A stretch of 64,000 nucleotides of DNA, taken from NCBI RefSeq assembly GCF_003628535.1, contig NZ_RBCI01000014.1:186001-250000 (forward strand), given 5' to 3'. The position numbers and the translations under genes are program-made. A model generated the notes under the pieces. The model saw only the letters and a list, made by a program, of their open reading frames with translations. It had not been told where the DNA came from and searched no databases. This document shows, piece after piece, positions 1-15,049 of the stretch. This DNA is from Flavisolibacter nicotianae (GTDB lineage Bacteria > Bacteroidota > Bacteroidia > Chitinophagales > Chitinophagaceae). Position 1 is the first letter of the stretch. Each line of letters opens with the position of its first letter.

Positions 1-1319
1 GTACCGTTTCCAAAGACGTTCAGTGCCTGCCAGATGTTGAACCGGAAAGGATTGGTGTAATTAAAGCTCGAAAACGTGGTTCCGGCATTCACTTTCAGCC
101 AGTCGGTCACCTGTACGCCGCCTTTGGCCCGGAAGTCATAGCGATTGTAGTTGTCAGAGCGCAGATTGAAAATACCCTCCTGTTTGTAAATTTTACCCGA
201 AGCCATATAATCAACTTTCTCCGAACCGCCAGACATGCTGATGGCATTTTCAATGGACGCAATCGAGCTTTTGTAGAGGTCATTGTACCAGTCAGAATTC
301 CCATAGTAAACATAGTTGCCATTCACCGGGTTCACCGTAATGTCCGGAAGCTGTCCGGGGTGTTCCGAGCGGTATTTGAGCGAATCGAGGTAAGAGTCGG
401 AAAAAGGCAGGCCACTCGATCCGATGGAGGAAGGTGTTTGCGAATAGTCGTACCAGCCGCCATACGTCTCTTTGTATAATTTGGCCCATGTATAGCCATC
501 GGTCACAACGTCTGGCTTGTTGCTGGGTTTGTTGAAGCTGTAATTACTCGAGAAATTAATTCTCGCTTTGTTTCTCCCCGGGTTTTTGGTTGTAATGAGG
601 ATGACCCCAAACGCACCACGGGAACCGTAAATGGACGCGGAGGCTGCGTCTTTCAATACGGTAATGCTGGCCACGTCTTCAGGGTTCACGTTTCGCGGAT
701 CGCCTGAAACCCCATCGATCAGGATCAGGGCTTCACCACCAGCCCCGATTGACGTAAGTCCCCGTACGTTCCAGGCCGGCGCAGACGTTGGCCGTCCGCT
801 GGTGTAATTGATGTTGAGGTTTGGAATAACCCCTTCCAATGCCCGGCTGATGTCGGTAACAGGGCGGTTTTCAAAATATTTACTGGTGATCTGATCAACA
901 GCCCCGGTCAGGTTGGCTTTTTTTTGCGTGCCGTATCCCACCACGACGACTTCATTCATCGCCTTAACATCTTTCTCCAATTGAACATTGAGGACGGTGC
1001 TGCCTGCAACGGCAACCTCCCGGGGCAGATAGCCGACAAAAGAAAAGATCAGGGTATCGCTCCCGGATGGCGCATTGATCTCAAAATGCCCGTTGACATC
1101 GGAAATCGCACCGGCGCTGCCGTGCTTCAGCACAACATTCACACCGCTGAGCGCTGCTCCATTTGGGTCTTTGACGCTTCCGCTGATCCTGCGCTGGGCA
1201 TAACCCTGAACAGAAAGAAAAAGAAATAGCACGAAAACACTTCTGGTCAGAAGTGCCTTTAGTCGCACCAAGTAAAGAGGGGTCCTTTTTGGAATACCCG
1301 GCAAGCAAAATTTTCTCAT
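1..1319 (-). CDS. SusC/RagA TonB-linked outer-membrane receptor, N-terminal 439 residues (runs off window)
   Basis: The protein imports a glycan fragment or other bulky nutrient across the outer membrane using TonB energy, normally with a SusD lipoprotein lid. Reading from ATG at 1319 gives an exported N-terminus ending in QGYAQ, a carboxypeptidase-regulatory-like beta-sandwich (KDPNGAALSGVNVVL), then the SusC signature VVVVGYGTQKKANLTGAVDQ and a TonB plug with LILIDGVSGDPRNVNPEDV and ASIYGSRGAFGVILITTK. The frame stays open to the left edge, so the barrel and any susD lie outside the window. A GTACATTTGTAC palindrome sits about 72 bp upstream, and gntR is divergent. Together these suggest it takes up the substrate of the operon at 4.3-15 kb. 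The family call is firm; the substrate is not known. Confidence 0.93.
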   Translation of the reverse strand, partial: MRKFCLPGIPKRTPLYLVRLKALLTRSVFVLFLFLSVQGYAQRRISGSVKDPNGAALSGVNVVLKHGSAGAISDVNGHFEINAPSGSDTLIFSFVGYLPREVAVAGSTVLNVQLEKDVKAMNEVVVVGYGTQKKANLTGAVDQITSKYFENRPVTDISRALEGVIPNLNINYTSGRPTSAPAWNVRGLTSIGAGGEALILIDGVSGDPRNVNPEDVASITVLKDAASASIYGSRGAFGVILITTKNPGRNKARINFSSNYSFNKPSNKPDVVTDGYTWAKLYKETYGGWYDYSQTPSSIGSSGLPFSDSYLDSLKYRSEHPGQLPDITVNPVNGNYVYYGNSDWYNDLYKSSIASIENAISMSGGSEKVDYMASGKIYKQEGIFNLRSDNYNRYDFRAKGGVQVTDWLKVNAGTTFSSFNYTNPFRFNIWQALNVFGNG

Positions 1320-1525: not shown

Positions 1526-2215
1526 ATGCAGCTCACCAAAATAAAACCGATCGAGAACCTGACACAGGTCGACAAGATCGAGCAGGCATTGCAAGAATAT
1601 TTTGAACGTGCCAACCTCCAGCCGGGCGACTCCATTCCCAAGGAAATGGACCTGGCCAAAGCGTTGGGTGTCAGCCGGACTGCCTTGCGGGAAGCCTTGT
1701 CGCGGTTCAAAACACTGGGTTTGATCGAAAGCAGAAAGAACAAGGGCATGACGCTTTCCTTTCCCGACCTGTTTTTGAACATGGAGCGGGTGATGTCGCC
1801 CAAGTTGCTCGGCGGGCAAACTCTCAATGATATTTTCGAACTGCGGCTGGTGCTGGAGATTGGAATTTGCGAGCTTTTGTTCAAACGCAAGAACATCCAG
1901 AATTTGCTGGAACTGAAAAGCATCGTGGAGAAGGAAGAAAAAGCCACGAACAAAAAGGAGATCCTGAAATATGACATAGAGTTTCATTCCATGCTTTATA
2001 AAATGTCGGGCAATGAAACCATGCTGCGGTTTCAAAAACTGCTGATCCCCATCTTTAACCATGTGTACCAGGAGTTGCACCTGGAAGAACAGCCCCTGCG
2101 AAACAACGAGATCACACACCGGGACCTTTACAATACGCTGAAAGACGGCGACCCGGATGAGTTCCGCACGAAAATGAAAAAACACCTGAGCCCCTATCTC
2201 AAGGATATTATTTGA
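1526..2215 (+). CDS. FadR-family (FCD) GntR transcriptional regulator
   Basis: This 229-residue DNA-binding regulator has a winged helix at residues 12-80 (PGDSIPKEMDLAKALGVSRT, then REALSRFKTLGLIESRKNKG), followed by an all-helical FCD ligand-binding domain. The usual FCD metal ligands are visible: D150 and H154 in DIEFHSML, H179, and H198 in EITHRDLY. FCD regulators typically repress catabolic genes and respond to organic acids, sugar acids or amino acids. It lies between the partial susC and the eleven-gene operon, and identical palindromes at 1391 and 4258 point to it as local regulator. The ATG at 1526 gives the normal family length. The effector is unknown; an acidic pathway intermediate is the natural guess. 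Confidence 0.9.
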   Translation: MQLTKIKPIENLTQVDKIEQALQEYFERANLQPGDSIPKEMDLAKALGVSRTALREALSRFKTLGLIESRKNKGMTLSFPDLFLNMERVMSPKLLGGQTLNDIFELRLVLEIGICELLFKRKNIQNLLELKSIVEKEEKATNKKEILKYDIEFHSMLYKMSGNETMLRFQKLLIPIFNHVYQELHLEEQPLRNNEITHRDLYNTLKDGDPDEFRTKMKKHLSPYLKDII

Positions 2216-2350: not shown

Positions 2351-3391
2351 TTATTTCTCCTTCAACCGGAGTTTGACCCGGTAGTAGGAAAACTTCCGGC
2401 CGCCTTTGTCATAATCGCTGTGCACCATGTTGGTGGCATAATAGTAAAGCCAATACGTGTCTTTCCCGGCAGCGACCAGGCCCGGTGCCACAATCCCCCA
2501 ATTGGCCTGTGCTCCGTCCAGCAGGGCACTCGTCAGGTCAACACTGGTCAGGATGGGCTGCCCTTTGTACATATAGGCAAGCCCAAATTTGATGGCGTTG
2601 TTCTTTTCATTGAAGAATGTAGGAAACAAAACATCCAGGTCAGCACTCACATTGGCAGCGGCTGGGTTGTAGAGGTGGGGAAAATCGCTGCTGAAATCCG
2701 CAGTTAAAATATTGTGCGGCGCCACCAGGGTGTTCCAATTGATGTCCGTCACGGCCAGGCCAATGGTGCGATACCGAATGTTGTTTTGCATTTCCCAGTG
2801 CCGCAGGTAGATATAATAACGGTTATCGCGACGGATAACGGAAAACTGAGAATCGTGTTTCTCATTCCAGAGCACCCGTTTGTTGACCCAATGAAGCCCG
2901 TCCTTCGACTCTTCGATAAAGGTTTTTTCCCTGAACTTGTCTGTGCTGTCTTTGGCCGTATAGATCATTTTATACGGATAAACCGCTGCAGGCTCAATGA
3001 AAACATCCTGCTCGACAATGCCATCTTTTTGCGGGTGTCCTGTTCCCCGCAAGATGTTGTTTGGCTGGCCCGGCACTTCTTTGATCCAGTGTTCGCCGTC
3101 GGTCGAATGGGCATAAACAAGGTAATCAGAATAATCGTCTTTGCGGCGGTTGTCCCAGGACGAATACCACATTTGCCATTTATCACTGCCTAGTTTTAAG
3201 ACTTTGAAATACCCCATCATCTGCTCTTCCCAGGGGAGCGTTTGGGTCAGCACCGTTTGCCGGCTGCCCTTTACAACATCCAGCGTAAACGGCATATCAG
3301 CCGTACTGTAGCGGACAAAAGTACGGGAGCTGGCGCATCCGAGGAAGAGAATACAAATACTGCAAGTCAAATAAAAGAAAAGACGCTTCAT
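2351..3391 (-). CDS. Secreted lipoprotein, five-bladed beta-propeller glycosidase-like
   Basis: The ATG at 3391 gives a lipoprotein signal MKRLFFYLTCSICILFLGC with lipobox LFLGC, so the protein is membrane-anchored after export; an upstream in-frame start would bury this signal. The roughly 325-residue mature part alternates aromatic-rich strands with turns such as MWYSSWDN, LVYAHSTDGEHWIKE, EESKDGLHWVNK and YYIYLRHW. That pattern is typical of GH43/GH32-like five-bladed propellers, which cleave or bind glycans, but I could not assign a catalytic acid triad with confidence. It starts 25 bp after the SGNH hydrolase gene and probably shares its transcript, so both likely process the substrate outside the cytoplasm. 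Confidence 0.68.
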   Translation of the reverse strand: MKRLFFYLTCSICILFLGCASSRTFVRYSTADMPFTLDVVKGSRQTVLTQTLPWEEQMMGYFKVLKLGSDKWQMWYSSWDNRRKDDYSDYLVYAHSTDGEHWIKEVPGQPNNILRGTGHPQKDGIVEQDVFIEPAAVYPYKMIYTAKDSTDKFREKTFIEESKDGLHWVNKRVLWNEKHDSQFSVIRRDNRYYIYLRHWEMQNNIRYRTIGLAVTDINWNTLVAPHNILTADFSSDFPHLYNPAAANVSADLDVLFPTFFNEKNNAIKFGLAYMYKGQPILTSVDLTSALLDGAQANWGIVAPGLVAAGKDTYWLYYYATNMVHSDYDKGGRKFSYYRVKLRLKEK

Positions 3392-3416
3392 GCTTCTTGT
3401 TTGGTTCGTGTATAAA

Positions 3417-4229
3417 TCAGCAGAACGGAACATGGCCGCTACAGGTAAAGGAACGATCGTCGCAAATGTCCAGGTGCTGGAAAAGCAGGCGGGCCATTTC
3501 CAGGTGGCCTTTCCCGTTGGGGTGCAAGGGATCGTTCCGCCATTTTTCAGCCACAACCTTTTCCTGATTGACCTCCCAGGAACGCCAGTGATCAATCAGG
3601 ATCAGGTTATGCTGGTCGGCTAGTTTCCGCATTGTTTCAACAAAGAAGGGCAAATCACTTCGCTCATTCTTCGTTGGGTCAGCCCCCATTTCAATCGTGT
3701 TCGGCGTTTGCAGGACCGGTATGGCCTTGAGAGCACGGATCTTCTGCACCAGTGTTTCGAGATTTTTCCCGTATTCTTCTACCGGGATACGGCGGCTTTT
3801 GGCCGCATCATTGGTGCCGATCATAAGCGAGACCACAGCGGGTGAAAACTGGGCGATCCGCCAGTCGAAATCGGCAAGAATTTCTCTGGTTGTCTGGCCG
3901 CTGACGGCCGTATTGATGATAAAATCTCTGGAACGGTTCATTTCAAACCGCACATGTTCCGAAAAAATTTCCGGGTACGAACGGTAACCCAGCGTGTGCT
4001 TAGCCCCTTGCGTTATGCTGTCACCGGTAAAGATCCATTTCATCGGTTTTTGCCTGTCAGCGATGGCGGCCTTCAGTGCCTGCAGATCGTCAATCTGCCT
4101 CGTGGCTGCCTTCACTGGCGAACAGGAAGCCAGGACCTCCTGACCCAACAGCGATGCCGCACCCAAAGACAAGGCACTACGGAATGATTTAACTAGGAAA
4201 TTTCGCCGGCTTTGCGTTTGCTCATGCAT
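3417..4229 (-). CDS. SGNH/GDSL-family hydrolase with twin-arginine-like leader
   Basis: This 270-residue esterase or deacylase of the SGNH fold begins with a twin-arginine-like leader (SRRNFLVKS plus a hydrophobic stretch), so it is exported. Block I is FTGDSITQG with nucleophile S71, block II AVSGQT, block III IGTNDAA (N140), and block V NDPLHPNGKG with D233 and H236. Such enzymes remove acyl groups such as acetate from sugars or act as lysophospholipases. The gene is divergent from the eleven-gene operon across the palindrome at 4258 and heads the SGNH-lipoprotein unit. A periplasmic de-O-acylation step for the imported substrate is an inference. Confidence 0.88.
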   Translation of the reverse strand: MHEQTQSRRNFLVKSFRSALSLGAASLLGQEVLASCSPVKAATRQIDDLQALKAAIADRQKPMKWIFTGDSITQGAKHTLGYRSYPEIFSEHVRFEMNRSRDFIINTAVSGQTTREILADFDWRIAQFSPAVVSLMIGTNDAAKSRRIPVEEYGKNLETLVQKIRALKAIPVLQTPNTIEMGADPTKNERSDLPFFVETMRKLADQHNLILIDHWRSWEVNQEKVVAEKWRNDPLHPNGKGHLEMARLLFQHLDICDDRSFTCSGHVPFC

Positions 4230-4338: not shown

Positions 4339-5283
4339 TTGCTCGCCAAAGCCAATCATACCCACTTCGATTCCTTTGTAGCCAAAGCCAGCTTTGCCGG
4401 GCCGCATGTCCTGATCATTGCCGGCGTGCACGGTGATGAAGTAGAACCCATGCTGGCAGCCATCCGGCTTTCCAAAACACTTGAAGGCAGTTTGAAAAAA
4501 GGCCGTGTCACAATCGTACCGGTAGCCAACCAATCTGCTTTTGCACGGAACAGCCGTGTTGGAGAAGACAACCTCGACCTGGCGCGGACCCTGCCCGGCA
4601 AAAAAGGAGGAAGTGTCACGGAAGAACTGGCTTATACCCTAAGCCGGGTGATCGAAAAAGTCGATTTCCTGCTTGATCTGCATACCGGTGGTGGCCTTTT
4701 TGATATCCTCCCCCTCACCGGCTATCTCTTGCACCCTGATGAAACTATCCTGAAACAGCAACAACAAATGGCGGAAGCATTCAATCTGCCGGTGATCTGG
4801 GGAACCGACAGCCAGGTGCAGGGACGGACGCTTTCGGTGGCCAGAGACTTCCGCATCCCGGCTATTTACGCCGAGTGCAGAGGAGGCCTTTCCGTCAACA
4901 AGCAAACAGTTCGGCGGTACGAAAAAGGCTGCTTGCGTGTGCTGGCGGCGCTTGGTATGACTGCTCCAATCAGCGGTTCGGCCAATAAGGTGGATTACTG
5001 GCTGGAAGACAACAACCCCGGACAGGGACACCTGCAGGTAAAGCTGCCTTCGCCGGCGTGCGGCATCTTTCTTCCGGCCGTTAGCCTTGGACGACAGGTT
5101 ACGAAAGGAAAGCTGCTGGGTCAGATTGTCAACCCATTGACACAAATAAAAACAAGTGTCAGGGCCCCGGAAGACGGGTTGGTTTTCATGCTGCGCATCC
5201 CCGCTATCGTGCAGGAAGGCGATTCTCTTGGCGGTATCCTGCCCATCACACAAAAAGGCAAAAAACGGATTCATGCAAGCTAA
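4339..5283 (+). CDS. M14/AstE-AspA-like zinc deacylase (succinylglutamate desuccinylase/aspartoacylase family)
   Basis: The enzyme hydrolyses an N-acyl amino acid or N-acyl amine in the cytoplasm. The zinc site is visible as H31 and E34 in GVHGDE and H115 in DLHTGG, with the catalytic glutamate E179 in AIYAECRGG. The C-terminal domain (about residues 220-310) looks like the small beta-domain of this family. There is no ATG upstream of the zinc motif: an in-frame stop at 4309 leaves TTG at 4339 (or ATT just before it) as start. Family relatives include AstE, aspartoacylase and the ectoine-pathway deacetylase DoeB. As first gene of the operon it probably unmasks an amino group. Its stop overlaps the next gene. 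Confidence 0.85.
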   Translation: MLAKANHTHFDSFVAKASFAGPHVLIIAGVHGDEVEPMLAAIRLSKTLEGSLKKGRVTIVPVANQSAFARNSRVGEDNLDLARTLPGKKGGSVTEELAYTLSRVIEKVDFLLDLHTGGGLFDILPLTGYLLHPDETILKQQQQMAEAFNLPVIWGTDSQVQGRTLSVARDFRIPAIYAECRGGLSVNKQTVRRYEKGCLRVLAALGMTAPISGSANKVDYWLEDNNPGQGHLQVKLPSPACGIFLPAVSLGRQVTKGKLLGQIVNPLTQIKTSVRAPEDGLVFMLRIPAIVQEGDSLGGILPITQKGKKRIHAS

Positions 5284-6085
5284 CGTAGCCATCATCACAG
5301 GTGCATCGAGAGGAATTGGCCGGGAAACAGCCCTGGCCTTTGCCGCAGCCGGCTATCACACAGCCGTTGTTGCCAACAACCAGGCGGCGCTGGACCAGGT
5401 AAAACAGGAAATAGAAACCCATTACCAAACCCAATGCCTGGTCTGCGCCGGCGATTTGCACGACCTCACCTTCACGCAGTCGATTGCAGCAACGGTTCGT
5501 GAGCACTTCGGCCGGATTGATGTACTGGTCAACAATGCCGCCTGGCGCACCATTGAAACGATGCGCACCATTACCGCGGAAACCTGGGAAAAAACGCTGC
5601 GGATCTGTGTGACGGCACCCGCCTTTCTTGCACAAAGCTGCGCAGCGTTGATGGAAGAAAACAGCTCGGGTGGCTGCGTGATCAATATTTCCAGCATCAT
5701 GTCGCAAAAGGCTGGTGGCAACAGCCCGGCCTACATAGCCAGCAAGGGTGCGATGGAAAGTCTCACAAAAGAGTTGGCCGTGACCTATGGCCGCAGCGGT
5801 ATCCGGGTGCTGTGTGTACGGCCCGGCGTAATCGATACGGACATGAGCAGTGACTATGTTTCGGAAGAAGGCGACGACATCAGCCGGCTGATGACCGACG
5901 AGTTGTTACAACTGACACCCGTTTGCCGAAAGGGAACAGGCCAGGATATTGCCCAGGCACTGGTCTGGCTTTCTTCGCCTGACGCCGCCTATATCACCGG
6001 CTGCGACCTCACCATCGATGGCGGCCTGTCGGCGAACTTCAGCAGCTATTTTATTAAAAACCTTCAATTCCCAAAAGAATATTGA
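5273..6085 (+). CDS. SDR-family NAD(P)-dependent oxidoreductase (first of two)
   Basis: This classical short-chain dehydrogenase has 270 residues from the ATG at 5273; longer in-frame openings would run deep inside the preceding gene. The nucleotide-binding motif is TGASRGIG (10-17), with NNAA at 87-90, the catalytic serine in INISS (140/141) and YIASK (Y154, K158). It overlaps the deacylase stop by 11 nt and ends in an overlap with the next gene, so translation is coupled. These enzymes interconvert alcohols and ketones. In this operon it probably oxidises a sugar or hydroxy-acid carbon, but the substrate cannot be read from sequence. Confidence 0.9.
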   Translation: MQANVAIITGASRGIGRETALAFAAAGYHTAVVANNQAALDQVKQEIETHYQTQCLVCAGDLHDLTFTQSIAATVREHFGRIDVLVNNAAWRTIETMRTITAETWEKTLRICVTAPAFLAQSCAALMEENSSGGCVINISSIMSQKAGGNSPAYIASKGAMESLTKELAVTYGRSGIRVLCVRPGVIDTDMSSDYVSEEGDDISRLMTDELLQLTPVCRKGTGQDIAQALVWLSSPDAAYITGCDLTIDGGLSANFSSYFIKNLQFPKEY

Positions 6086-7161
6086 AAACGGTTGTACACG
6101 ATAAAAAAAACGAGATCACCATTTCCAGCCGGTTTTCGATTGGCGAAGGCCATACACCATTGATCCCATCCCGCTTTATCGGGCCATCAATGGGACTGAA
6201 AAATCTTTATTTCAAGCTGGAAAATTTAAACCCGACAGGCTCATACAAAGACCGGTTTGCGGCAGCGTTTATTGGAACACTCCTGCAGAAAAAAGTCCCC
6301 TTTTGCCTCGCCACGTCCAGCGGCAACACCGGTGCGGCGCTTGCGGCTTATTGTGCCGCAGCCAATATCCCTTGCTACGTGGTGGTTGTGGACAATGCAC
6401 CCGCCGACAAGATCCGGCAAATGCATGCCTATGGCGCCAAAACCCTGATGGTGGGAGGATTTGGCATCAACACCGGCATTACCAATGCTGTTTTTTCCGG
6501 ACTGGAACAACTGGCAAAAGCTAAAGAAGTTTCCCTCCCCATAAGTGCCTATCGTTATTGCCCCGAAGGCATGCAGGGAGTTGAAAGCATAGCAGAAGAA
6601 GTCCTGAGAGACTTGAACCGAGAAGTTGATCACCTGTTTTCACCAGCAGGTGGTGGAGGGCTCACGTTGGCTGTGGCCAACGGCGTTCTTTCGTCTGTCA
6701 CTCCAACGTCGTGCAGAGTGCATTGCGTGCAGCCCCTTGGCAACAACACCATCGCCGGTGCCCTGCGCAACGGACTTGCCAACGCAGTGGAAGTGCCGAG
6801 ATCAACCACCACTGTCAGCGGCCTGCAGGTGCCGGGCATCCTGGATGGCAACGAAACGCTGCAACGGTGCCGGCAAACAGGCGGAACCGGGTTTGTAGTG
6901 ACTGACGAAGCGGTTTACAACATGCAAACAACACTGGCCCGAAAAGAAGGCATTTTCTGCGAAGCTGCAGCAGCCGTTAGCGTCAGTGGGCTCGCCGAAG
7001 CCGTGCAAAATAGTGAGGTTGAGCCAGACGACACCATCGTTTGCCTGATCACCGGATCGGGTTTCAAAGACATGAATTCACCGGCCAGAAATACAGGGAC
7101 AAAATCCATCGAAACAAAATATTCTGTTGACAATCTATTCCAATTTTTAGCAACCATATAA
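6082..7161 (+). CDS. PLP fold-type-II lyase, threonine-synthase/dehydratase-like
   Basis: This 359-residue enzyme belongs to the tryptophan-synthase-beta fold of pyridoxal-phosphate enzymes. The Schiff-base lysine is K56 in PTGSYKDRF, the substrate-carboxylate loop is SSGNTG (79-84), and the phosphate-binding glycines are in SPAGGGGLTL. It starts with TTG at 6082, whose bases overlap the TGA of the preceding gene; no suitable ATG exists. The family eliminates water, phosphate or ammonia from amino acids and yields 2-oxo acids through enamines. A RidA protein encoded two genes downstream fits, since RidA hydrolyses those enamines. A likely job is dehydration and deamination of a hydroxy amino acid or 2-aminoaldonate. 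Confidence 0.87.
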   Translation: MKTVVHDKKNEITISSRFSIGEGHTPLIPSRFIGPSMGLKNLYFKLENLNPTGSYKDRFAAAFIGTLLQKKVPFCLATSSGNTGAALAAYCAAANIPCYVVVVDNAPADKIRQMHAYGAKTLMVGGFGINTGITNAVFSGLEQLAKAKEVSLPISAYRYCPEGMQGVESIAEEVLRDLNREVDHLFSPAGGGGLTLAVANGVLSSVTPTSCRVHCVQPLGNNTIAGALRNGLANAVEVPRSTTTVSGLQVPGILDGNETLQRCRQTGGTGFVVTDEAVYNMQTTLARKEGIFCEAAAAVSVSGLAEAVQNSEVEPDDTIVCLITGSGFKDMNSPARNTGTKSIETKYSVDNLFQFLATI

Positions 7162-7165
7162 GCAA

Positions 7166-8083
7166 ATGACCCAATTTAAAAAGCAACTACAAGGCGTGTG
7201 GCCGGCCATGTTTACCCCGGTGAATAACGAGGGCAAACTGAACGTAGCCGAACTGGAGAAACTGATCGAAATGCTGGTCAAGGAAGGTGCCGATGGCCTT
7301 TACATCCTGGGCTCTACGGGTCAGGGATTTCTTTTCAGCGAGGCCGAAAGAAAAGAAATTACGGAGTTGGTGGTGCAGATGGTACGCAAACGAGTTGGCG
7401 TGATCGTGCAGGTGGGTGCCATCAGCACGGAAGAAAGCATGCGGCTGGCCTGCCATGCGGCAAGAACCGGAGCCGACGCCATCTCTTCGGTCGGGCCAAT
7501 CTATTACGGGCTTTCCGGCAACATGGCGTTTGAGCATTACCGCAGAATATCCTTTGCCTCCGACCTGCCGTTTATTCCTTACCAGATTGGCCATGCCACC
7601 AACAAAGTCCTGATCGAAAAGCTCATGGACATTCCCAACATTGTCGGCATGAAACTGACCACGCTGAATTTGCTCGAGATCAGCAGCGTGTACCGGCAAA
7701 CGGGAGGCACCTGGCAATTGTTCAGCGGCGCCGATGAACTGATCTGTCAGGCAGCGCTGTGCGGGACGGCCGGCGCCATCGGTTCGACCTACAACGTGTT
7801 GCCTTCTTCTTTCAAACAAGTAAGGGAGCGTTTCCTGGCCGGCGAAGTAGCAATGGCCAATGAGTTCATGCTCACTTTCCAAAACCTTATTGAGGACATT
7901 CTCCCGGTGATCTGGTCGTTTTACCGGCGGGCCATGATCCTGAAGCACAACATCGACATTGGCGATCCCAAACCACCCCTGCTGGCACAGCCGCTTCGGT
8001 GGAACGACGAACAAATTCTTCAGATGGTTAACAGCCTCGAAGAGATCGTCAGCCACCATGTAACCCCAATGATAAATCACTAA
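7166..8083 (+). CDS. DapA/NanA-family class I aldolase or dehydratase
   Basis: The (beta/alpha)8 lyase has 305 residues. Family positions are visible: GSTGQG at 49-54 (the GTTGE/GSTGE loop with Q in place of E), a tyrosine in IPYQIG (Y139), and the Schiff-base lysine K163 in VGMKLTT. Members cleave or form 2-keto-3-deoxy acids, N-acetylneuraminate or dihydrodipicolinate. Inside a catabolic operon next to a deaminating PLP enzyme and a lactonase, a 2-keto-3-deoxy-aldonate aldolase giving pyruvate is more likely than lysine biosynthesis. It starts 4 nt after the PLP gene. The Q for E change may alter substrate choice. Confidence 0.88.
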   Translation: MTQFKKQLQGVWPAMFTPVNNEGKLNVAELEKLIEMLVKEGADGLYILGSTGQGFLFSEAERKEITELVVQMVRKRVGVIVQVGAISTEESMRLACHAARTGADAISSVGPIYYGLSGNMAFEHYRRISFASDLPFIPYQIGHATNKVLIEKLMDIPNIVGMKLTTLNLLEISSVYRQTGGTWQLFSGADELICQAALCGTAGAIGSTYNVLPSSFKQVRERFLAGEVAMANEFMLTFQNLIEDILPVIWSFYRRAMILKHNIDIGDPKPPLLAQPLRWNDEQILQMVNSLEEIVSHHVTPMINH

Positions 8084-8094
8084 TCATTACACCA

Positions 8095-8475
8095 ATGAGT
8101 ATACGTTATTATAAAGGCGGCGACATGCCGGATAGTCACCTACCCTTCAGTCCCGCCGTGGAAGCGGGGCCTTTTATCTTTATTTCCGGCCAGGCTTCCG
8201 TTGACAAAAACGGAAAGATCGTCAACGACAGTTTTGAAAACGAATGCCGCCGGTCTTTCGAAAATGTGCACAGCATTTTGCAGGCCACCGGTCTTGATTT
8301 CAGCGATGTCGTTCAGGTCAGAAATTATGTCGGCCGCCAGGAAGACCTCCAACGTTTCAACGAGATCTACAGGGAGTTTTTTTCGGAACCTTACCCTGCC
8401 CGTACAACCCTGATCGGCTGCCTGGGTACCTTGCTAAAATTTGAAGTGGATGTCGTTGCCTACCGGAAGCCATAA
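8095..8475 (+). CDS. ridA: RidA/YjgF-family enamine/imine deaminase
   Basis: This 126-residue protein has the full family length. The conserved arginine R103 sits in PARTTL and the glutamate E117 in KFEVDVVA; both line the RidA active site at the trimer interface, and GQASVD and VRNYV are further family blocks. RidA proteins speed release of ammonia from reactive 2-aminoacrylate-type enamines formed by PLP dehydratases. That suits its place two genes after a fold-type-II PLP enzyme. The start of the following gene lies inside its 3' end. Whether it is a true RidA or a pathway-specific paralogue cannot be settled here. Confidence 0.92.
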   Translation: MSIRYYKGGDMPDSHLPFSPAVEAGPFIFISGQASVDKNGKIVNDSFENECRRSFENVHSILQATGLDFSDVVQVRNYVGRQEDLQRFNEIYREFFSEPYPARTTLIGCLGTLLKFEVDVVAYRKP

Positions 8476-9943
8476 GACTTTTCGCATTGCCATCCTGGGC
8501 ATCTACCACGAGTCCAACACCTTTGTTCCGGCGTCAACAACGCTGGCGGATTTTCAAAACAGCCGCTGGCTGAAAGGAACTGCCCTTTTGGACGCCTATC
8601 GCAATGCCTTTCATGAACTGGGTGGTGCCATCGAGGTTTTTTCGGAAACCAACGTGGAGATGGTGCCGGTGTTTTATGCAGAAACAACACCCGGTGGAAC
8701 CATCACCAGCGAGGCATATGCGGCTTTGCAAGAGGAGTTGCTGAACGAACTGGCAAGCGCCTTGCCGGTTGACGCCTGCTTTGTGGTGCCGCACGGCGCC
8801 GCCGTGGCCGAAAACCACCGGGACATGGATGGCGAATGGCTTTCTGCACTCCGGCAGTTCCTCGGCAAAGCAATACCTATTGTTGGTACACTGGACCCCC
8901 ATGCGAATGTCAGTCCGCTGATGGCTGGCGCTACACAGGCACTGTTCCCGTACCGCACCAATCCGCACATTGATCAGCGGGAAACCGGTCGCCGTGCTGC
9001 CCATTTTTTGCTCTCAATCTTACAGAACAATAGCAGGCCGGTGCAACGTCTGTGGCAGTCACCAGTTGCCATCAGCATTGAGCAGCAACACACGGAAGCG
9101 GATCCCTGCAAAAGCCTGTACCAATTTGTGCGATCGCTGGAAGAAAAATATCCCTGCACGCAGGTTGAGATTGCACTTGGTTTTCCCTATGCGGATGTAC
9201 CCGAAATGGGCACCTCTCTGCTTTTGATCAGCGAAAACGGCAACACAGATTTTGAAGCAATCGAACAAGAGTTGACTGCTTATTTTTTGCAGCACAAAAA
9301 AAGCTTTGCTGCGACAAAAAAAACGGTTGAAGAAACCTTGCAGCGAATACCAAGTAGCCCGAAGCCTGTTTTGTTATTGGACATGGGCGACAACGTTGGT
9401 GGCGGCAGTGCCGGCGACAGTACCTTCCTGCTCGAAAAGCTGGAAAGTACAACCCACAAAACACTCATCTGCCTGTACGCTCCCGAAGCAGTAGCCGCTT
9501 GCAAAAAACAAAAAGATGAACAAGCATTTCTACTCTCGTTTGGCTGCCATCCGGAAAGCGCTAAAGCATTTACAACAATATCTACCCTGCTCGGCCGCTA
9601 CGATGGAAAGTTTGCAGAAGAAAAACCAAGGCACGGAGGACAGAAGACATTCGACATGGGAGACACAGCCGTGATCAGAACAGAAAAAGGGAACACTGTC
9701 CTCCTGCACAGCAAGCGCATGCCGCCGTTCAGTCTTGCGCAGATCACCAGTTGCGGCATCGATCCAAAAGACTTTGATGTGATCATTGCAAAAGGCGTCA
9801 ATGCACCCATTGCAGCATACAAAGACGTTTGCCCGACGATTTTACAGGCCAACACACCCGGTGTGACACAGGCCGATATGACACAGTTTCTCTATCAGCA
9901 CCGGCGAAAACCCCTCTACCCTTTCGAAAACGTTGACACATGA
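8450..9943 (+). CDS. MlrC-like M81 metallopeptidase family protein
   Basis: About 497 residues are read from the ATG at 8450, which lies 26 nt inside ridA; an in-frame TTG lies nine bases earlier. Family motifs include ILGIYHESNTFVP near the start, TTPGGTITSEAYA, VPHGAAVAEN, GTLDPHANVSP and later DMGDNVGGGSAGDST, all typical of the MlrC N-terminal and C-terminal domains with metal-binding histidines and aspartates. The named member opens linearised microcystin, but most homologues lie in catabolic clusters and act on unknown small molecules, probably amides. Its operon place suggests hydrolysis of an amide or peptide-like bond in the substrate. Confidence 0.9.
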   Translation: MSLPTGSHKTFRIAILGIYHESNTFVPASTTLADFQNSRWLKGTALLDAYRNAFHELGGAIEVFSETNVEMVPVFYAETTPGGTITSEAYAALQEELLNELASALPVDACFVVPHGAAVAENHRDMDGEWLSALRQFLGKAIPIVGTLDPHANVSPLMAGATQALFPYRTNPHIDQRETGRRAAHFLLSILQNNSRPVQRLWQSPVAISIEQQHTEADPCKSLYQFVRSLEEKYPCTQVEIALGFPYADVPEMGTSLLLISENGNTDFEAIEQELTAYFLQHKKSFAATKKTVEETLQRIPSSPKPVLLLDMGDNVGGGSAGDSTFLLEKLESTTHKTLICLYAPEAVAACKKQKDEQAFLLSFGCHPESAKAFTTISTLLGRYDGKFAEEKPRHGGQKTFDMGDTAVIRTEKGNTVLLHSKRMPPFSLAQITSCGIDPKDFDVIIAKGVNAPIAAYKDVCPTILQANTPGVTQADMTQFLYQHRRKPLYPFENVDT

Positions 9944-10761
9944 GAAAAATCACTGGCCATACAAAACTCTTTTCACTGCCTTTTTACACGGAAGGGCCTG
10001 TGGTAGATGAAATGGGAAACATCTTTGTCACAACCCTGCAGGGCGGCACCATTCTGAAGATGGCGCCGGGCAAAGAACCAGTGGTTTGGGCACACCTGAC
10101 TTGCCCCAACGGACAGGTGCGGCTGCCCAACGGTGACCACGTGGTTTGCGACTGTCAATCGGCAGCGCTGGTACACTTTACTTCGTCCGGCGAATTCCTG
10201 CAAAATGTCATAAAAGACTTTTGTGCCGGTATGCCCGTGAAGACTCCCAATGATGTCATTGTCGATAATGCCGGGAATCTTTATTTCACAGATTCGATAC
10301 GTCATGAGGGCAGCGTTTTTTTTATTGGTGCCGATGGTTCTCAAAAAGTCATCGCCAGCCAGCTTGACTATCCCAACGGACTCGCTTTGTCCAAGGACGA
10401 AAAAACGTTGTTCGTCGCGGAAAGTTATCAGAACCGTATACTTGCTTTCGAACTTTCATTTGACGGCCAGAAGAAAGAATCAAATGTCTTTGCCAACTTA
10501 CCCGAACACCCTTCAGGTGAGGCGATCAACAACCTGCCCGATGGAATCAAAGTGGATGAAGAGCGTTGCCTTTGGGTAGCCCATTACGGCATGGGAAAGA
10601 TCCATCGCATCCTCCCTGATGGAAGCATTAGCCAGTCCATCGATCTGCCGTTTCCTCTAGGGAGTAATATTTTTATCAGCAATCAAACAATCATTGTCAC
10701 TGGCGGTTACGGTGAACCCGGGCCGGGTGGCGTTTACCAAATAGCTTTGGCCAATGAATGA
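9940..10761 (+). CDS. SMP-30/gluconolactonase-family lactonase
   Basis: This six-bladed beta-propeller has 273 residues. The metal ligands of the family are in place: E18 in FYTEGPVV, the asparagine in TPNDVIVD and the aspartate in LPDGIKVDE, with NLYFTDS and DYPNGLALS as blade motifs. These enzymes open aldonolactones made by sugar dehydrogenases, using a divalent cation. The ATG overlaps the mlrC-like stop (ATGA). With aldo-keto reductase and SDR genes beside it, the order dehydrogenase, lactonase and aldolase resembles non-phosphorylative sugar oxidation. The protein shows no convincing signal peptide, so it is probably cytoplasmic. Confidence 0.9.
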   Translation: MRKITGHTKLFSLPFYTEGPVVDEMGNIFVTTLQGGTILKMAPGKEPVVWAHLTCPNGQVRLPNGDHVVCDCQSAALVHFTSSGEFLQNVIKDFCAGMPVKTPNDVIVDNAGNLYFTDSIRHEGSVFFIGADGSQKVIASQLDYPNGLALSKDEKTLFVAESYQNRILAFELSFDGQKKESNVFANLPEHPSGEAINNLPDGIKVDEERCLWVAHYGMGKIHRILPDGSISQSIDLPFPLGSNIFISNQTIIVTGGYGEPGPGGVYQIALANE

Positions 10762-11677
10762 GCCCCTAACGTTATCGAAGCTGACCCTCGGCACCGTGCA
10801 ACTGGGCCTGCCCTATGGCGTGGCCAATACGAGTGGTCAGCCTGAGACAAGCTATAGCCACGAGTTGTTGCAGTTTGCACTTGACAAGGGCATCCGCATA
10901 CTCGACACCGCCAGAGCGTATGGCAATGCGGAGCAGGTCATCGGCAGCTTCGCAAACCGGAAATACTTCACCTGCATTTCCAAGTTCAAATTAAGTCCAG
11001 AAGCACTCGATAATCCGTCGCTGGCCATAGCGGAAGCAAGACAAAGTGCAATCACCTCCTGCGAAATGTTGAACGTCGATTGCCTCCCGGTTTTGTTGTT
11101 TCACAAAGGACCTGAGGAGCCAATTGAGAAAGTTGCCTCTCTCCTGCCCCTCATCTTTAAAACCTTGAAGAGTGAAGGGCTGATTGGTGAAGGCGGGCTT
11201 TCGGCTTACACACCGGATGAATTAATATGTATACGGGACTGGGAAACCATCCGTTCGGTTCAGGTGCCGATGAATGTTTTCGACACGCGGTTACTGCAAG
11301 GAAATCTTTTGCAAACACTTGCTGAAAAGAACGTTCGCGTTTTTGTACGCAGCGTGTACCTGCAAGGCTTGCTCCTGATGGAAACGCACCCACCGCATTT
11401 ATCTTTTGCAAAACCCTATCTTGACCAACTGGAAGCAATAGCAAAAAAAGCTGATCGGACCATCAAAGAACTGGCCTTTGCATTTGTAAGAGATACACCC
11501 GGTGTCAGCAGCATCGTGGTAGGTGCTGAAACAATCGGGCAAGTGCAGGAGAACATCGAACTTTTGGCAACACCGCCGTTGCCCGAACACATAACATCCG
11601 AAATCAAGCAGCGTTTCGCTGCCGTACCGCTGGATCTCATCACACCGGCACGTTGGCCGCAAAAACAAACAACATGA
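10754..11677 (+). CDS. Aldo-keto reductase family protein
   Basis: The TIM-barrel oxidoreductase has 307 residues and begins 8 nt before the lactonase stop. The catalytic tetrad can be read as D51 and Y56 in DTARAYGNAE, a lysine near 77 in CISKFKL, and a histidine in LLFHKGP. The C-terminal GVSSIVVGAET is the usual cofactor-binding segment. The subgroup resembles bacterial L-fucose or D-threo-aldose 1-dehydrogenase-like reductases. It could oxidise a sugar to the lactone handled by the neighbouring SMP-30 enzyme, or reduce the aldehyde released by the aldolase. The direction cannot be decided from sequence. Confidence 0.9.
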   Translation: MNEPLTLSKLTLGTVQLGLPYGVANTSGQPETSYSHELLQFALDKGIRILDTARAYGNAEQVIGSFANRKYFTCISKFKLSPEALDNPSLAIAEARQSAITSCEMLNVDCLPVLLFHKGPEEPIEKVASLLPLIFKTLKSEGLIGEGGLSAYTPDELICIRDWETIRSVQVPMNVFDTRLLQGNLLQTLAEKNVRVFVRSVYLQGLLLMETHPPHLSFAKPYLDQLEAIAKKADRTIKELAFAFVRDTPGVSSIVVGAETIGQVQENIELLATPPLPEHITSEIKQRFAAVPLDLITPARWPQKQTT

Positions 11678-12471
11678 AGGTAACCGAGCTCTATCATCTT
11701 ACGGGGAAAACGACGATTGTCACTGGTGGCACCGGGCTGTTTGGCAAACCCATCTCTTTTGCCCTGGCAGAAGCCGGGGCCCACGTAATCATTGCGTCAA
11801 GAAACGAGGAAAGCTGCAAAGCCGTTGCCCAAGAAATCAGGCAGAACGGCTACCAGGCCGAAGGTGCTTTTTTAGACCTAGGTGATGAAAAAAGCATTCT
11901 GGCGTTGGTTGACAAGGTTACAGCAATGCACAACCGAATTGACATACTGGTGAACAATGCTGTCTCGCGGGAAAACTATAAAAAGCTGGAAGAAACGACA
12001 GCCGAAGACTGGGAAACGGCGCAACACATCAACGCCACCGGTTTAATGCTCATCAACAAAGCCGTGGTGCAGCAGATGGTGAATCAGGGAAAAGGCAGCA
12101 TCGTCAACATCGGTTCCATACAGGGAGCGGTGGGTCCAAACTTCGAAGTTTATGGATCAACGGGCATGACAAGCCCACTCAATTACACGTATGACAAATG
12201 GGGCATGGTGGGCCTTACCAAATGGATGGCAAATGCTTATGGCAAACACAACATCCGCGTGAACTGCATCAGCCCCGGTGGCTATGGGCCAGGCATTGAA
12301 GCCTCGTTTGGCGAAAATGAATTCACTGAAAATTACAAGCGGCTGACGCCCCTGCGCCGGTTTGTCTACGATGACGACATCAAAGGTCCCGTTGTCTTTT
12401 TGGCTTCAGAAGCATCGGCTTATATCACAGGGCACAATCTTCTTGTTGACGGCGGCTGGACAAGCTGGTAG
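11674..12471 (+). CDS. SDR-family oxidoreductase (second of two)
   Basis: This classical short-chain dehydrogenase has 265 residues from the ATG at 11674, which overlaps the reductase stop as ATGA. TGGTGLFG (17-24) binds the cofactor, NNAV follows the fourth strand, and the active site has a serine in IGSIQG and the Y171-x3-K175 pair in NYTYDKWG. It ends with the typical ITGHNLLVDGGWTSW. It resembles gluconate 5-dehydrogenase-type or other sugar-acid SDRs more than the first SDR, and the two share little beyond family motifs. Two dehydrogenases in one operon imply two redox steps. Confidence 0.9.
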   Translation: MKVTELYHLTGKTTIVTGGTGLFGKPISFALAEAGAHVIIASRNEESCKAVAQEIRQNGYQAEGAFLDLGDEKSILALVDKVTAMHNRIDILVNNAVSRENYKKLEETTAEDWETAQHINATGLMLINKAVVQQMVNQGKGSIVNIGSIQGAVGPNFEVYGSTGMTSPLNYTYDKWGMVGLTKWMANAYGKHNIRVNCISPGGYGPGIEASFGENEFTENYKRLTPLRRFVYDDDIKGPVVFLASEASAYITGHNLLVDGGWTSW

Positions 12472-12476
12472 AACCA

Positions 12477-13730
12477 ATGTTTGCGATGGAAAAAACAACA
12501 ACGCCTGCAGAAAAAAAGGAAACGCTTCCGCCCAGGGCCTGGCTGGCGGTCGTCCTGCTTTTTTTTGTCGGTCTGCTCAATTATCTCGACCGGAACACCA
12601 TCACCACCATGCACACGTCCATCACCGTGGCGATCCCGATGTCGGATAAACAGTTCAGCCTTCTCACGGCTGTTTTTCTTTGGGTCTATGGACTGTTCAG
12701 TCCCTTCGCCGGCTACCTGGCCGACCGCTTTGGCCGCAGCCGCATTATTATCACCAGCCTTTTTATTTGGTCGGCGGTGACTTGGCTCACGGCACATGCT
12801 GCCAATTTTGAGCAGCTTTTGGCTACCCGGGCACTGATGGGATTGAGTGAAGCCTGTTACATTCCGGCGGCGCTTGCCCTGATCTCCGACTACCACAAAG
12901 GCTCAACGCAATCCACAGCGACAGGCATTCACATGGCCGGCGTTTTTATCGGTGCCAGCCTGGGTTTTGTTGGCGGCTGGATCGCGGAAGATCATAGCTG
13001 GAATTTAGCGTTTACCATTTTTGGTGGCATTGGAATCGTGTATGCGATCGTGATCGCGTTTTTGCTGAAAGATCCACCACAAGAAAAGCTAAATGATCCC
13101 GCTTCAACTCTTCCGGCTGAACAGGGTAATTTTTTCAGGACGATCAAAGAGTTATTCTCCATTCCTTCGTTTTACGCGATGCTCGCCTTTTGGAGTTTAC
13201 TGAGCATCGTCGCCTGGTTGATCACCGCCTGGCTGCCCACGTTTTACCTGCAGCGGTTCCATCTCTCGCAGAAGATGGCCGGCGTCTATGCAACGGCTTA
13301 CCTGTACCCGGCATCCGTTGCCGGTCTTGTGCTTGGCGGGATTATGACCGATCAATGGAGTAAAAAAAACCGGCGGGCCCGCATGCTGGTGCCGGCACTG
13401 GGGCTTTGCGTCGCAACACCAATGGTTTTTCTGGCAAGCGATACAACAATCCTTACCCTTGCCATTTTATTTTTTATGATCTATGCCTTCACCAAGGCCT
13501 TCAGCGATACCAACATGATGCCGATCCTATCCACCATTGCCACAAAAGAAAAACGGGCAACGGGTTACGGCATTTTAAACCTGTTTAGCTGCATTGTCGG
13601 TGGCATTGGTATCTACGCCGGCGGCTACCTGCGGGATGCGGAGGTGAGCTTCACCACCATTTTCCGGTGGGCTTCTTTTCTGATCCCGGTTTGCATTGTG
13701 CTTTTACTCCTTATCAAGTCGAAAAAATAA
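12477..13730 (+). CDS. MFS transporter (hexuronate/anion symporter-like)
   Basis: This 417-residue inner-membrane permease has about twelve hydrophobic helices. The loop between helices 2 and 3 is GYLADRFGRSR, the classical MFS signature, and LNYLDRNTI in helix 1 is common in the anion:cation symporter and spinster-like groups that carry sugar acids and organic anions. It starts 5 nt after the second SDR. In the operon it probably brings the periplasmic product of the SusC, SGNH and lipoprotein steps into the cytoplasm. The ATG at 12477 leaves a short charged cytoplasmic tail. Confidence 0.9.
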   Translation: MFAMEKTTTPAEKKETLPPRAWLAVVLLFFVGLLNYLDRNTITTMHTSITVAIPMSDKQFSLLTAVFLWVYGLFSPFAGYLADRFGRSRIIITSLFIWSAVTWLTAHAANFEQLLATRALMGLSEACYIPAALALISDYHKGSTQSTATGIHMAGVFIGASLGFVGGWIAEDHSWNLAFTIFGGIGIVYAIVIAFLLKDPPQEKLNDPASTLPAEQGNFFRTIKELFSIPSFYAMLAFWSLLSIVAWLITAWLPTFYLQRFHLSQKMAGVYATAYLYPASVAGLVLGGIMTDQWSKKNRRARMLVPALGLCVATPMVFLASDTTILTLAILFFMIYAFTKAFSDTNMMPILSTIATKEKRATGYGILNLFSCIVGGIGIYAGGYLRDAEVSFTTIFRWASFLIPVCIVLLLLIKSKK

Positions 13731-13738
13731 AAAGCTTT

Positions 13739-15049
13739 ATGCCTGTCGAGAATCGCTACCAAAAATCATCTGACCTGTTGCGCCGAAGCAAAAACGTTCT
13801 TGCCGGGGGCGTGTCATCTGAATTCCGGAAATACAATCATCCGCATGCCCTGTTTTACACCCACGGTTGCGGCAGCCGAATTTATGATGTGGACGGCAAC
13901 GAATACCTTGATTTTACCCTGAGCCAGGGACCGCTCATTCTGGGACATTCGCACCCAAAGGTGCTTGCGGCCATCAGCGATTATTCGGAAGAAGGACAAC
14001 TTTTTGCGGGGCAACATATCCGGGAACTGGAGTTGGCCGAAACCATTCAGCGACTTATCCCTTCTGCCGAACGGATGCGCTTTTGCCTGGACGGCTCGGA
14101 AGCCGTGCAGACTGCCTTGCGCATTGCCAGGGCAAAAACCGGCCGGCCGAAATTCCTGCGCTTTGAAGGGCATTACCATGGCTGGCTGGACAATGTGGCC
14201 TGGGGACTTTCCACTCCATCGCCGGAAGCATTGGGCTCACAGGAACACCCAACTGTTTTTCCCTGGAGTGCGGGACTTGCGGATGGCGCAAAGGATGAAT
14301 TCGTGATCCTTCCCTGGAACGACGCTGACCTGCTGGCAAAAACCCTTGCCGAACAATACCACGAAATTGCTGCTGTCATCACCGAGCCTGTTATGTGCAA
14401 CAACGGCTGCATTGAACCACGCGAAGGTTACCTTGAGGAGATGCGCCGTCTTTGCGATCAATATGGAATTACGCTCATTTTTGACGAAGTGATCACCGGT
14501 TTTCGCCTGGGACTGAGCGGAGCACAAGGACGCTTCAACATCACGCCTGACGTGTCCATCTTTGCCAAGGCCATTGCCAGCGGCTACCCGATCAGCGCCA
14601 TTGTGGGCAAACAAGAGTGGATGCAACTGATCGAAGACGGCACGGTGATCCATGCAGGCACGATGAACTCCGGAAACAGTTCGGTAGCTGCAGCCCTTGC
14701 CACCATCAACGTACTGGAAACAGAAAACCCTTATCCCCGGATGTATACGCTGGGAAATGAGCTGATGGAAGGCTTACGACAACTTGCTTCGGAAGCCGGC
14801 CACAACCTGCTGGTGCAAGGACCCGGGCCTGTTTTTCACACGGGCTTTACCAATGCAAATTCCGTAAACGACTTCCGCGACACACTGAAATATGATAAAG
14901 CAAAACTAAATCGGTTCATTAGCGGCATGCACGACAGAGGCATTCGTATCATTGGAAGAGGGCTGTGGTATATCAGCGCGGCTCACACAAAGGATGATAT
15001 CTCGCTGGCTTTGCGGGAAGCGAAAGCTGTACTGAAAACCATGATTTAA
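13739..15049 (+). CDS. Class III aminotransferase, glutamate-1-semialdehyde aminomutase-like
   Basis: The PLP fold-type-I enzyme has 436 residues from the ATG at 13739, 8 nt after the transporter stop. Key residues are K277 in DVSIFAKAIASGYP (Schiff base), D249 in LIFDEVITGFR, GSEAVQTALR for cofactor phosphate, and HYHGW for ring stacking. The family contains haem-pathway HemL and many catabolic or secondary-metabolism aminotransferases and aminomutases. Last place in a catabolic operon argues against haem synthesis. It probably moves or removes an amino group from a pathway amine. It is the last gene in the run, and no clear terminator follows. Confidence 0.9.
   Translation: MPVENRYQKSSDLLRRSKNVLAGGVSSEFRKYNHPHALFYTHGCGSRIYDVDGNEYLDFTLSQGPLILGHSHPKVLAAISDYSEEGQLFAGQHIRELELAETIQRLIPSAERMRFCLDGSEAVQTALRIARAKTGRPKFLRFEGHYHGWLDNVAWGLSTPSPEALGSQEHPTVFPWSAGLADGAKDEFVILPWNDADLLAKTLAEQYHEIAAVITEPVMCNNGCIEPREGYLEEMRRLCDQYGITLIFDEVITGFRLGLSGAQGRFNITPDVSIFAKAIASGYPISAIVGKQEWMQLIEDGTVIHAGTMNSGNSSVAAALATINVLETENPYPRMYTLGNELMEGLRQLASEAGHNLLVQGPGPVFHTGFTNANSVNDFRDTLKYDKAKLNRFISGMHDRGIRIIGRGLWYISAAHTKDDISLALREAKAVLKTMI

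Follow-up and report, generated by a model that had tools for sequence, protein, structure and literature searches.

What does the eleven-gene operon at positions 4339..15049 of a 64,000-nucleotide stretch of Flavisolibacter nicotianae DNA break down? The stretch (assembly GCF_003628535.1, contig NZ_RBCI01000014.1, positions 186,001 to 250,000; G000:C6:186001-250000 in our numbering; genome size 6.09 Mb) is called the window here. The operon likely serves the catabolism of a nonulosonic acid of some kind. In particular, we favor sialic-acid-type catabolism with an oxidative, non-phosphorylative lower half. The greater confidence in the broader assignment combines this best explanation with a rival built on legionaminic-type acids, which is weighed below.

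All eleven open reading frames (ORFs) run in the same direction, and the gap between neighbors, where they do not overlap, is no more than 11 bases. The earlier note on this DNA described eleven tightly coupled ORFs of the families below, and the ORF, Pfam, and NCBIfam checks bear this description out. The M14, PLP (pyridoxal phosphate), DapA, MlrC, SMP-30, AKR (aldo-keto reductase), MFS (major facilitator superfamily), and AT3 (class-III aminotransferase) families were assigned by Pfam, and the two short-chain dehydrogenases/reductases (SDR1 and SDR2) and RidA by NCBIfam alone.

4339..5283, + strand: M14 AstE/AspA-type N-deacylase (PF24827)
5273..6085, + strand: SDR1, proposed C1 dehydrogenase (best NCBIfam match a "glucose 1-dehydrogenase" subfamily, 201.8 bits, cutoff 215)
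6082..7161, + strand: fold-II PLP enzyme, proposed beta-eliminating ammonia-lyase (PF00291)
7166..8083, + strand: N-acetylneuraminate-lyase-type aldolase of the DapA/DHDPS family (PF00701; key residues and solved relatives)
8095..8475, + strand: RidA-family enamine/imine deaminase (TIGR00004, 78.9 bits, cutoff 106.25)
8441..9943 (start 8441 or 8450), + strand: M81/MlrC metallopeptidase-like protein (PF07364+PF07171)
9940..10761, + strand: SMP-30 lactonase family protein (PF08450)
10754..11677, + strand: AKR (PF00248)
11674..12471, + strand: SDR2, gluconate-5-dehydrogenase/KduD-like (best NCBIfam match a gluconate 5-dehydrogenase subfamily, 193.3 bits, cutoff 279)
12477..13730, + strand: MFS transporter (PF07690)
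13739..15049, + strand: AT3, GSAM/GntE-like (PF00202; NF041362, 388 bits, cutoff 525)

By its sequence, the aldolase is of the N-acetylneuraminate lyase (NAL) type. NAL is its best NCBIfam match (183.9 bits against a cutoff of 281; a further NAL score is 156.1 against 382), ahead of dapA (138.5 bits) and the archaeal 2-keto-3-deoxygluconate (KDG) aldolase (114.1 bits), and its top solved relatives are NALs. Residues Y137, K165, T167, G189, D191, and E192 (E. coli NAL numbering) are kept in 16 of the 16 cluster aldolases checked, which come from the window, 14 other loci, and genome G123. Position 208 is Ser, or Thr in three of the 16, as in the NAL of the host's separate canonical nan locus, and at position 50 Gln replaces Glu in all 15 proteins that cover it. 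The aldolase thus has the Lys and Tyr that we take to be catalytic and the G-x-D-E and Ser that presumably bind the sugar; E192 presumably contacts side-chain hydroxyls. The host's canonical NAL keeps the checked positions, which are not kept in a DapA that a relative encodes in a different cluster. The assignment of the aldolase to the 2-keto-3-deoxy-acid type in the earlier note is therefore not retained.

The gene set is conserved. GTDB species genomes were scanned with the PLP enzyme alignment (A1), and the best 80 of 586 relatives were kept. Eleven of these 80 (Bacteroidota by name), five same-family genomes, and the window make up 17 loci. Gene counts in them depend on identity thresholds of our choosing, and the references for accessory kinds, the last kinds counted (e.g., RraA-like, SGNH, GntR), were taken from some of the 17 loci, so that these loci match themselves. 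M14 and PLP genes are present in 17 of 17 loci, and SDR1, DapA, RidA, MlrC, and SMP-30 genes each in 16, the remaining locus ending at a contig end. An MFS gene is present in 12 loci, SusC in 11, SusD in nine, an RraA-like gene in nine, an SGNH gene (at least 40% identity) in nine including the window, and GntR in seven. Recurrence in 17 loci indicates that the set is not a chance assembly, and conservation across Bacteroidota, which the earlier note had put forward as a check, is thus found. Within the family, a PLP homolog at E 1e-40 or better occurs in 6 of 244 genomes, the host included, and in none of the host's three congeners. Among the 25 and 15 matches listed in plasmid searches with MlrC and the PLP enzyme, respectively, identity is at most about 32%. 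In L084, which stops at a contig end, SDR1 and M14 form one fused 641-aa ORF; the fusion is known from a single metagenome-assembled genome and may therefore be an assembly artifact. In G123 (L008:10698-19037), six opposite-strand genes split the operon between the PLP and RidA genes.

The neighbors of the operon in relatives point to sialic-acid-type substrates. A GH33-like sialidase gene is present in 14 of the 17 loci, and a NanM-like gene also in 14 (12 by identity threshold, L011 and L045 by protein clustering). The relatives' Kelch protein is NanM-like (PF24996/TIGR03548); in both long forms tested, from L017 and L028, it is joined to a sodium symporter (PF00474) in one protein. In the sialidase-like family, E228, R244, R306, and Y337 are invariant and R48 and D76 are kept in 90% or more of the 26 aligned sequences (26 of 27 cluster members, a short one being omitted). 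The family profile matches 74 solved sequences at 1e-5, the best 60 of which are mostly sialidases. The Glu, two Arg, and the Tyr align in four solved-structure alignments; the first Arg lies outside them. PDB 5hx0, "uncharacterized protein Dfer_1899", also matches this profile, and its name suggests Dyadobacter fermentans, a carrier of the cluster (L015). As an informal comparison, 12 regions around AT3 paralogs (L125, L126, L128-L137) hold no NanM-like gene and show weak BNR matches only, in L129 (30%) and L132 (23%).

Next to the operon in the window lie three further features.

1..1319, - strand: 5' part of a divergent SusC gene (L098)
1526..2215, + strand: GntR/FCD regulator, NanR-like (PF00392+PF07729; NanR NF003011 the best NCBIfam match)
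3417..4229, - strand: SGNH/GDSL hydrolase, possible O-acetylesterase (PF13472, 93.3 bits)

The NanR match of the regulator scores 85.9 bits (cutoff 260). The regulator is 45% identical to that of the host nan locus, and the operon MFS transporter is 39% identical to the nan-locus MFS transporter. Upstream, beyond the window edge, lie a SusD-like ORF (N-terminal reading only) and then a GH36 gene. A 414-aa ORF with a lipoprotein-like stretch occupies window positions 2351-3595 on the - strand; its part 2351-3493 has no Pfam or NCBIfam match.

Families, conserved residues, and gene linkage are observed; from them we infer each of the following reactions and their order. The MFS transporter would import the nonulosonic acid, and its cleavage by the NAL-type aldolase would yield pyruvate plus a sugar of the N-acyl-mannosamine type. 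SDR1 (or the AKR) would oxidize C1 of the sugar to give a lactone, whose ring the SMP-30 protein would open. The M14 enzyme would then take off the N-acyl group to leave a 2-aminoaldonate, from which the PLP enzyme would eliminate the C3 hydroxyl. RidA would clear the resulting enamine/imine to a 2-keto-3-deoxyaldonate and ammonia; with N-acetylmannosamine (ManNAc) as the sugar, the deoxyaldonate would be KDG. Finally, KDG would be cleaved to pyruvate and a C3 sugar by aldolases encoded elsewhere or, in some relatives, by an in-cluster RraA-like protein. The host has two matches each to the KDPG-aldolase family and to RraA-like proteins outside the operon, so KDG could be used. In G123, genes for pyruvate-phosphate dikinase and FBPase come after the operon, and in L045 one for glycerate kinase lies on its 3' side; these two single cases are expected if only C3 products form. 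The scheme gives no definite role to AKR, SDR2, AT3, or MlrC; the earlier note had likewise left MlrC and the aminotransferase without an explained role.

M14 residues H31, E34, H115, E179, and R83, among which we take the metal ligands and the catalytic Glu to lie, are found in each of the 55 aligned proteins (the window's and 54 homologs of at least 250 aa). In Fischer projection, the amino group of D-mannosaminate stands on the left (L at C-alpha), whereas that of glucosaminate stands on the right (D). With its L configuration, mannosaminate would match N-acyl-L-amino-acid deacylases as well as fold-II enzymes of the L-threonine type.

Several observations weigh against the sialic-acid-type pathway. 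The window itself has neither a sialidase nor a NanM gene. The single NANM match in the host genome belongs to the separate nan locus, and identity to the sialidase-like protein of the relatives reaches no more than 32% in the host. That locus, within C70:73000-92999, holds GntR, SusC, and SusD (the latter two named by N-terminal reading), NAL, NanM, MFS, a BNR_2 sialidase with a YRIP motif, a GlcNAc (N-acetylglucosamine) 2-epimerase, and a SASA esterase, and a second N-acetylneuraminate (Neu5Ac) route looks redundant beside it. A close ortholog of its epimerase (at least 74% identical) is found in 10 of the 17 cluster genomes, the host included. AKR, SDR2, and AT3 genes are found in only 8, 8, and 5 of the 17 stretches read, some of which are cut. 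The NCBIfam scores quoted for operon proteins are all under the family cutoffs. The nearest solved relative of the PLP enzyme by profile is threonine synthase, so elimination, as opposed to another fold-II reaction, is our proposal. The substrate of SDR1 is not readable from sequence, and close AT3 paralogs (67-71% identity) lie in another cluster of the same genomes. Outside Bacteroidota, 41 of 69 loci have M14, but DapA-family proteins are found in 11, sialidase-like proteins in seven, and NanM-like proteins in two; in our alignment, the D/E pair of NAL is missing in 8 of the 11 DapA proteins (L075 being poorly aligned).

Some of these points can be read further. The ten retained orthologs weaken the idea that the operon simply replaces the classical route. 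Of the remaining cluster genomes, six have epimerase matches of at most 38% identity and one has none; among the ten orthologs, the G030 copy has an internal stop. In the family, the canonical sialate epimerase (E 1e-150) is present in 45 of 244 genomes, namely in five of the six cluster carriers versus 40 of 238 others (Fisher p 0.0009, or 0.013 when collapsed by genus, relatedness being otherwise uncorrected); this association counts in favor of the sialic-acid-type pathway. Since the host has a classical nan locus, the operon substrate may be a nonulosonate beyond the reach of that route. AT3 is found at E 1e-100 in 13 of the 17 whole genomes and SDR2 at E 1e-60 in nine, both sometimes outside the cluster; SDR2 has 64-69% identical proteins in 8 of the 16 other cluster genomes. 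The AT3 paralogs elsewhere in the same genomes weaken the case for AT3 as a pathway-specific enzyme. Their surroundings form another conserved Bacteroidota cluster (L125, L126, L128, L130, L132, L133, L134, L136, L137; AT3 67-71% identical), in which N-terminal reading gives 3-hydroxyacyl-dehydrogenase-like and "ITPPLG"-type ceramidase-like partners, often RidA (not in L132 or L137), and an M19-like protein (not in L128). The N-acylmannosamine 1-dehydrogenase of Flavobacterium, as a reference for SDR1, was not among the best 60 of 238 matches.

The 69 non-Bacteroidota loci (L013-L092 less the eleven) were counted by any BLAST match at 1e-8 to the gene clusters. Besides the 41 with M14, SDR1-like genes occur in 27, MlrC in 24, AT3 in 16, RidA in seven, and SMP-30 in three. 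In those 41 loci, M14 again lies close to the PLP gene. The D/E pair is kept in three of the 11 DapA-family proteins, all from Paenibacillus. Four Paenibacillaceae loci (L061, L063, L067, L075) have a GFO/IDH/MocA-family oxidoreductase beside PLP, M14, and DapA, and all except L067 also have a metallo-beta-lactamase-fold protein. Judged from these families, they follow the same logic with other dehydrogenase and lactonase candidates. In actinobacterial PLP loci L076, L077, L078, and L085, a gene of a NeuC-like cluster lies nearby, PF02350 (UDP-GlcNAc 2-epimerase) being confirmed for L076 only.

The strongest rival, which we consider possible at a low probability, is a dedicated pathway for a di-N-acylated 9-deoxy nonulosonate such as legionaminic acid. 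Removal of its two acyl groups would fall to M14 and MlrC, and that of its two amino groups to PLP/RidA and SDR2/AT3. The operon does contain two enzymes of amide-hydrolase type and two types that remove amino groups, and the host genome carries a classical nan locus besides. The lyase product, 2,4-diacetamido-2,4,6-trideoxymannose, lacks a 6-hydroxyl and could not enter through a 6-phosphate, which would explain an operon without kinase or epimerase; its manno configuration at C2 also gives an L-type amino acid. However, E192 is conserved, many of the stretches lack AT3, SDR2, and AKR, and a deacylase activity of MlrC is hypothetical. Genes specific to these acids did not turn up, though none was searched for by name. 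We know of no catabolic route for di-N-acylated nonulosonic acids. Among the papers listed on legionaminic and pseudaminic acid catabolism, PMC13317340 included, no such route appeared by title and abstract start.

An entry through free GlcNAc or N-acetylgalactosamine is improbable. The sugar would be oxidized to its aldonate, deacylated, subjected to elimination, and finally split by a KDG-type aldolase, with no nonulosonate involved. This was the entry proposed in the earlier note, whose general idea, that an N-acylated amino sugar is oxidized and deaminated without phosphorylation, fits the conserved families. The enzyme families are compatible with a free hexosamine, and the published ong pathway is analogous. 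Nevertheless, the NAL residues of the aldolase, the relatives' sialidase-like and NanM-like genes, and the NanR-like regulator in the window oppose a KDG-type aldolase as the last step and fit better with a pathway that a lyase opens by cleaving a nonulosonic acid. In addition, D-configured glucosaminate would be ill-suited to the L-type deacylase and fold-II PLP families.

We regard as equally doubtful an operon for amino acids or small peptides, with a DoeB-like M14, AT3, MlrC, and RidA, and a NAL relative recruited for another keto acid. The nearest characterized solved relative of M14 is DoeB (6twl), and AT3 is accompanied by MlrC in 14 of the 69 non-Bacteroidota loci, some with dipeptide-type transporters (N-terminal reading). 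The Bacteroidota loci instead hold SusCD, GH33-like, and NanM-like genes, and SMP-30 and two SDRs indicate a sugar. Ectoine degradation, which M14, PLP, and AT3 recall through DoeB, EutB, and DoeD, was rejected, because the scores are far under the cutoffs (M14, 94.1 bits against the DoeB equivalog cutoff of 402.7; PLP, 66.8 against the EutB cutoff of 413).

Known systems place the proposed sialic-acid-type pathway as follows. After the lyase, two routes are described, NanA/K/E and NanA(NanL)/NanE-II/RokA, both passing through GlcNAc-6-phosphate, and through NanOx the 2,7-anhydro-Neu5Ac form feeds into one of them, upstream of the lyase (PMC10017367, PMC10570557, PMC8754123); a kinase is described in PMC3360785. 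The pathway proposed here may be a third bacterial way to eat sialic-acid-class sugars, beside these two phosphorylated-sugar routes. Surveys built on the presence of nanE or nanE-II would overlook an oxidative route that uses neither epimerase nor kinase. If correct, the proposal would give functions to several orphan enzymes (M14 and the fold-II PLP enzyme) and let the use of sialic-acid-like sugars by free-living Bacteroidota be tested as a defined pathway.

ManNAc kinase and ManNAc-6-phosphate epimerase are absent among the eleven ORFs, unlike in a canonical nanA/K/E cluster. The Bacteroidetes-type locus is defined by clustered nanA and nanE-II with rokA present (PMC8754123). Like that locus (NanL/NanE-II/RokA; PMC10017367), the operon has a NAL-type lyase and, in relatives, NanM, GH33-like, and SusCD genes, and its MFS transporter and NanR-like regulator are related to the host's C70 counterparts. 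It differs in having no epimerase or kinase and in having extra dehydrogenases, a lactonase, M14, PLP, RidA, MlrC, and an aminotransferase. The host's two GlcNAc 2-epimerase family matches lie on C70 and C64, neither in the window; as no GlcNAc/ManNAc 2-epimerase is clustered with the window lyase, the operon is not classed as a Bacteroidetes-type member.

The doe/eut systems degrade ectoine and hydroxyectoine with an AstE-type deacetylase, a fold-II PLP enzyme, and a class-III aminotransferase. The window operon has these three families in common with them, but the M24 ectoine hydrolase was not found among its eleven ORFs. For Gluconobacter, conversion of mannosamine to mannosaminate is reported, and no catabolism of the product (PMC9171043).

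No paper on such a pathway, searched by gene set, M81 function, and ManNAc oxidation, was found by title and abstract start. The earlier note knew of no characterized pathway with this exact gene set; a comparable route with deacylase, PLP deaminase, and RidA is published: the ong cluster, which acts on N-acetylglucosaminate from oxidized chitin (PMC9537276). The eight-gene ong list given there includes no NAL, lactonase, or M14. Ong uses D-aminoacylase (OngB) and D-amino-acid-deaminase (OngC) families and a KDG kinase, whereas the window has AstE/AspA and threonine-synthase-like families. In both, a deacylase and a deaminase convert, or in the window would convert, a 2-acylamino-aldonate to a 2-keto-3-deoxy acid; the ong pathway is the closest chemical analog of the proposed route.

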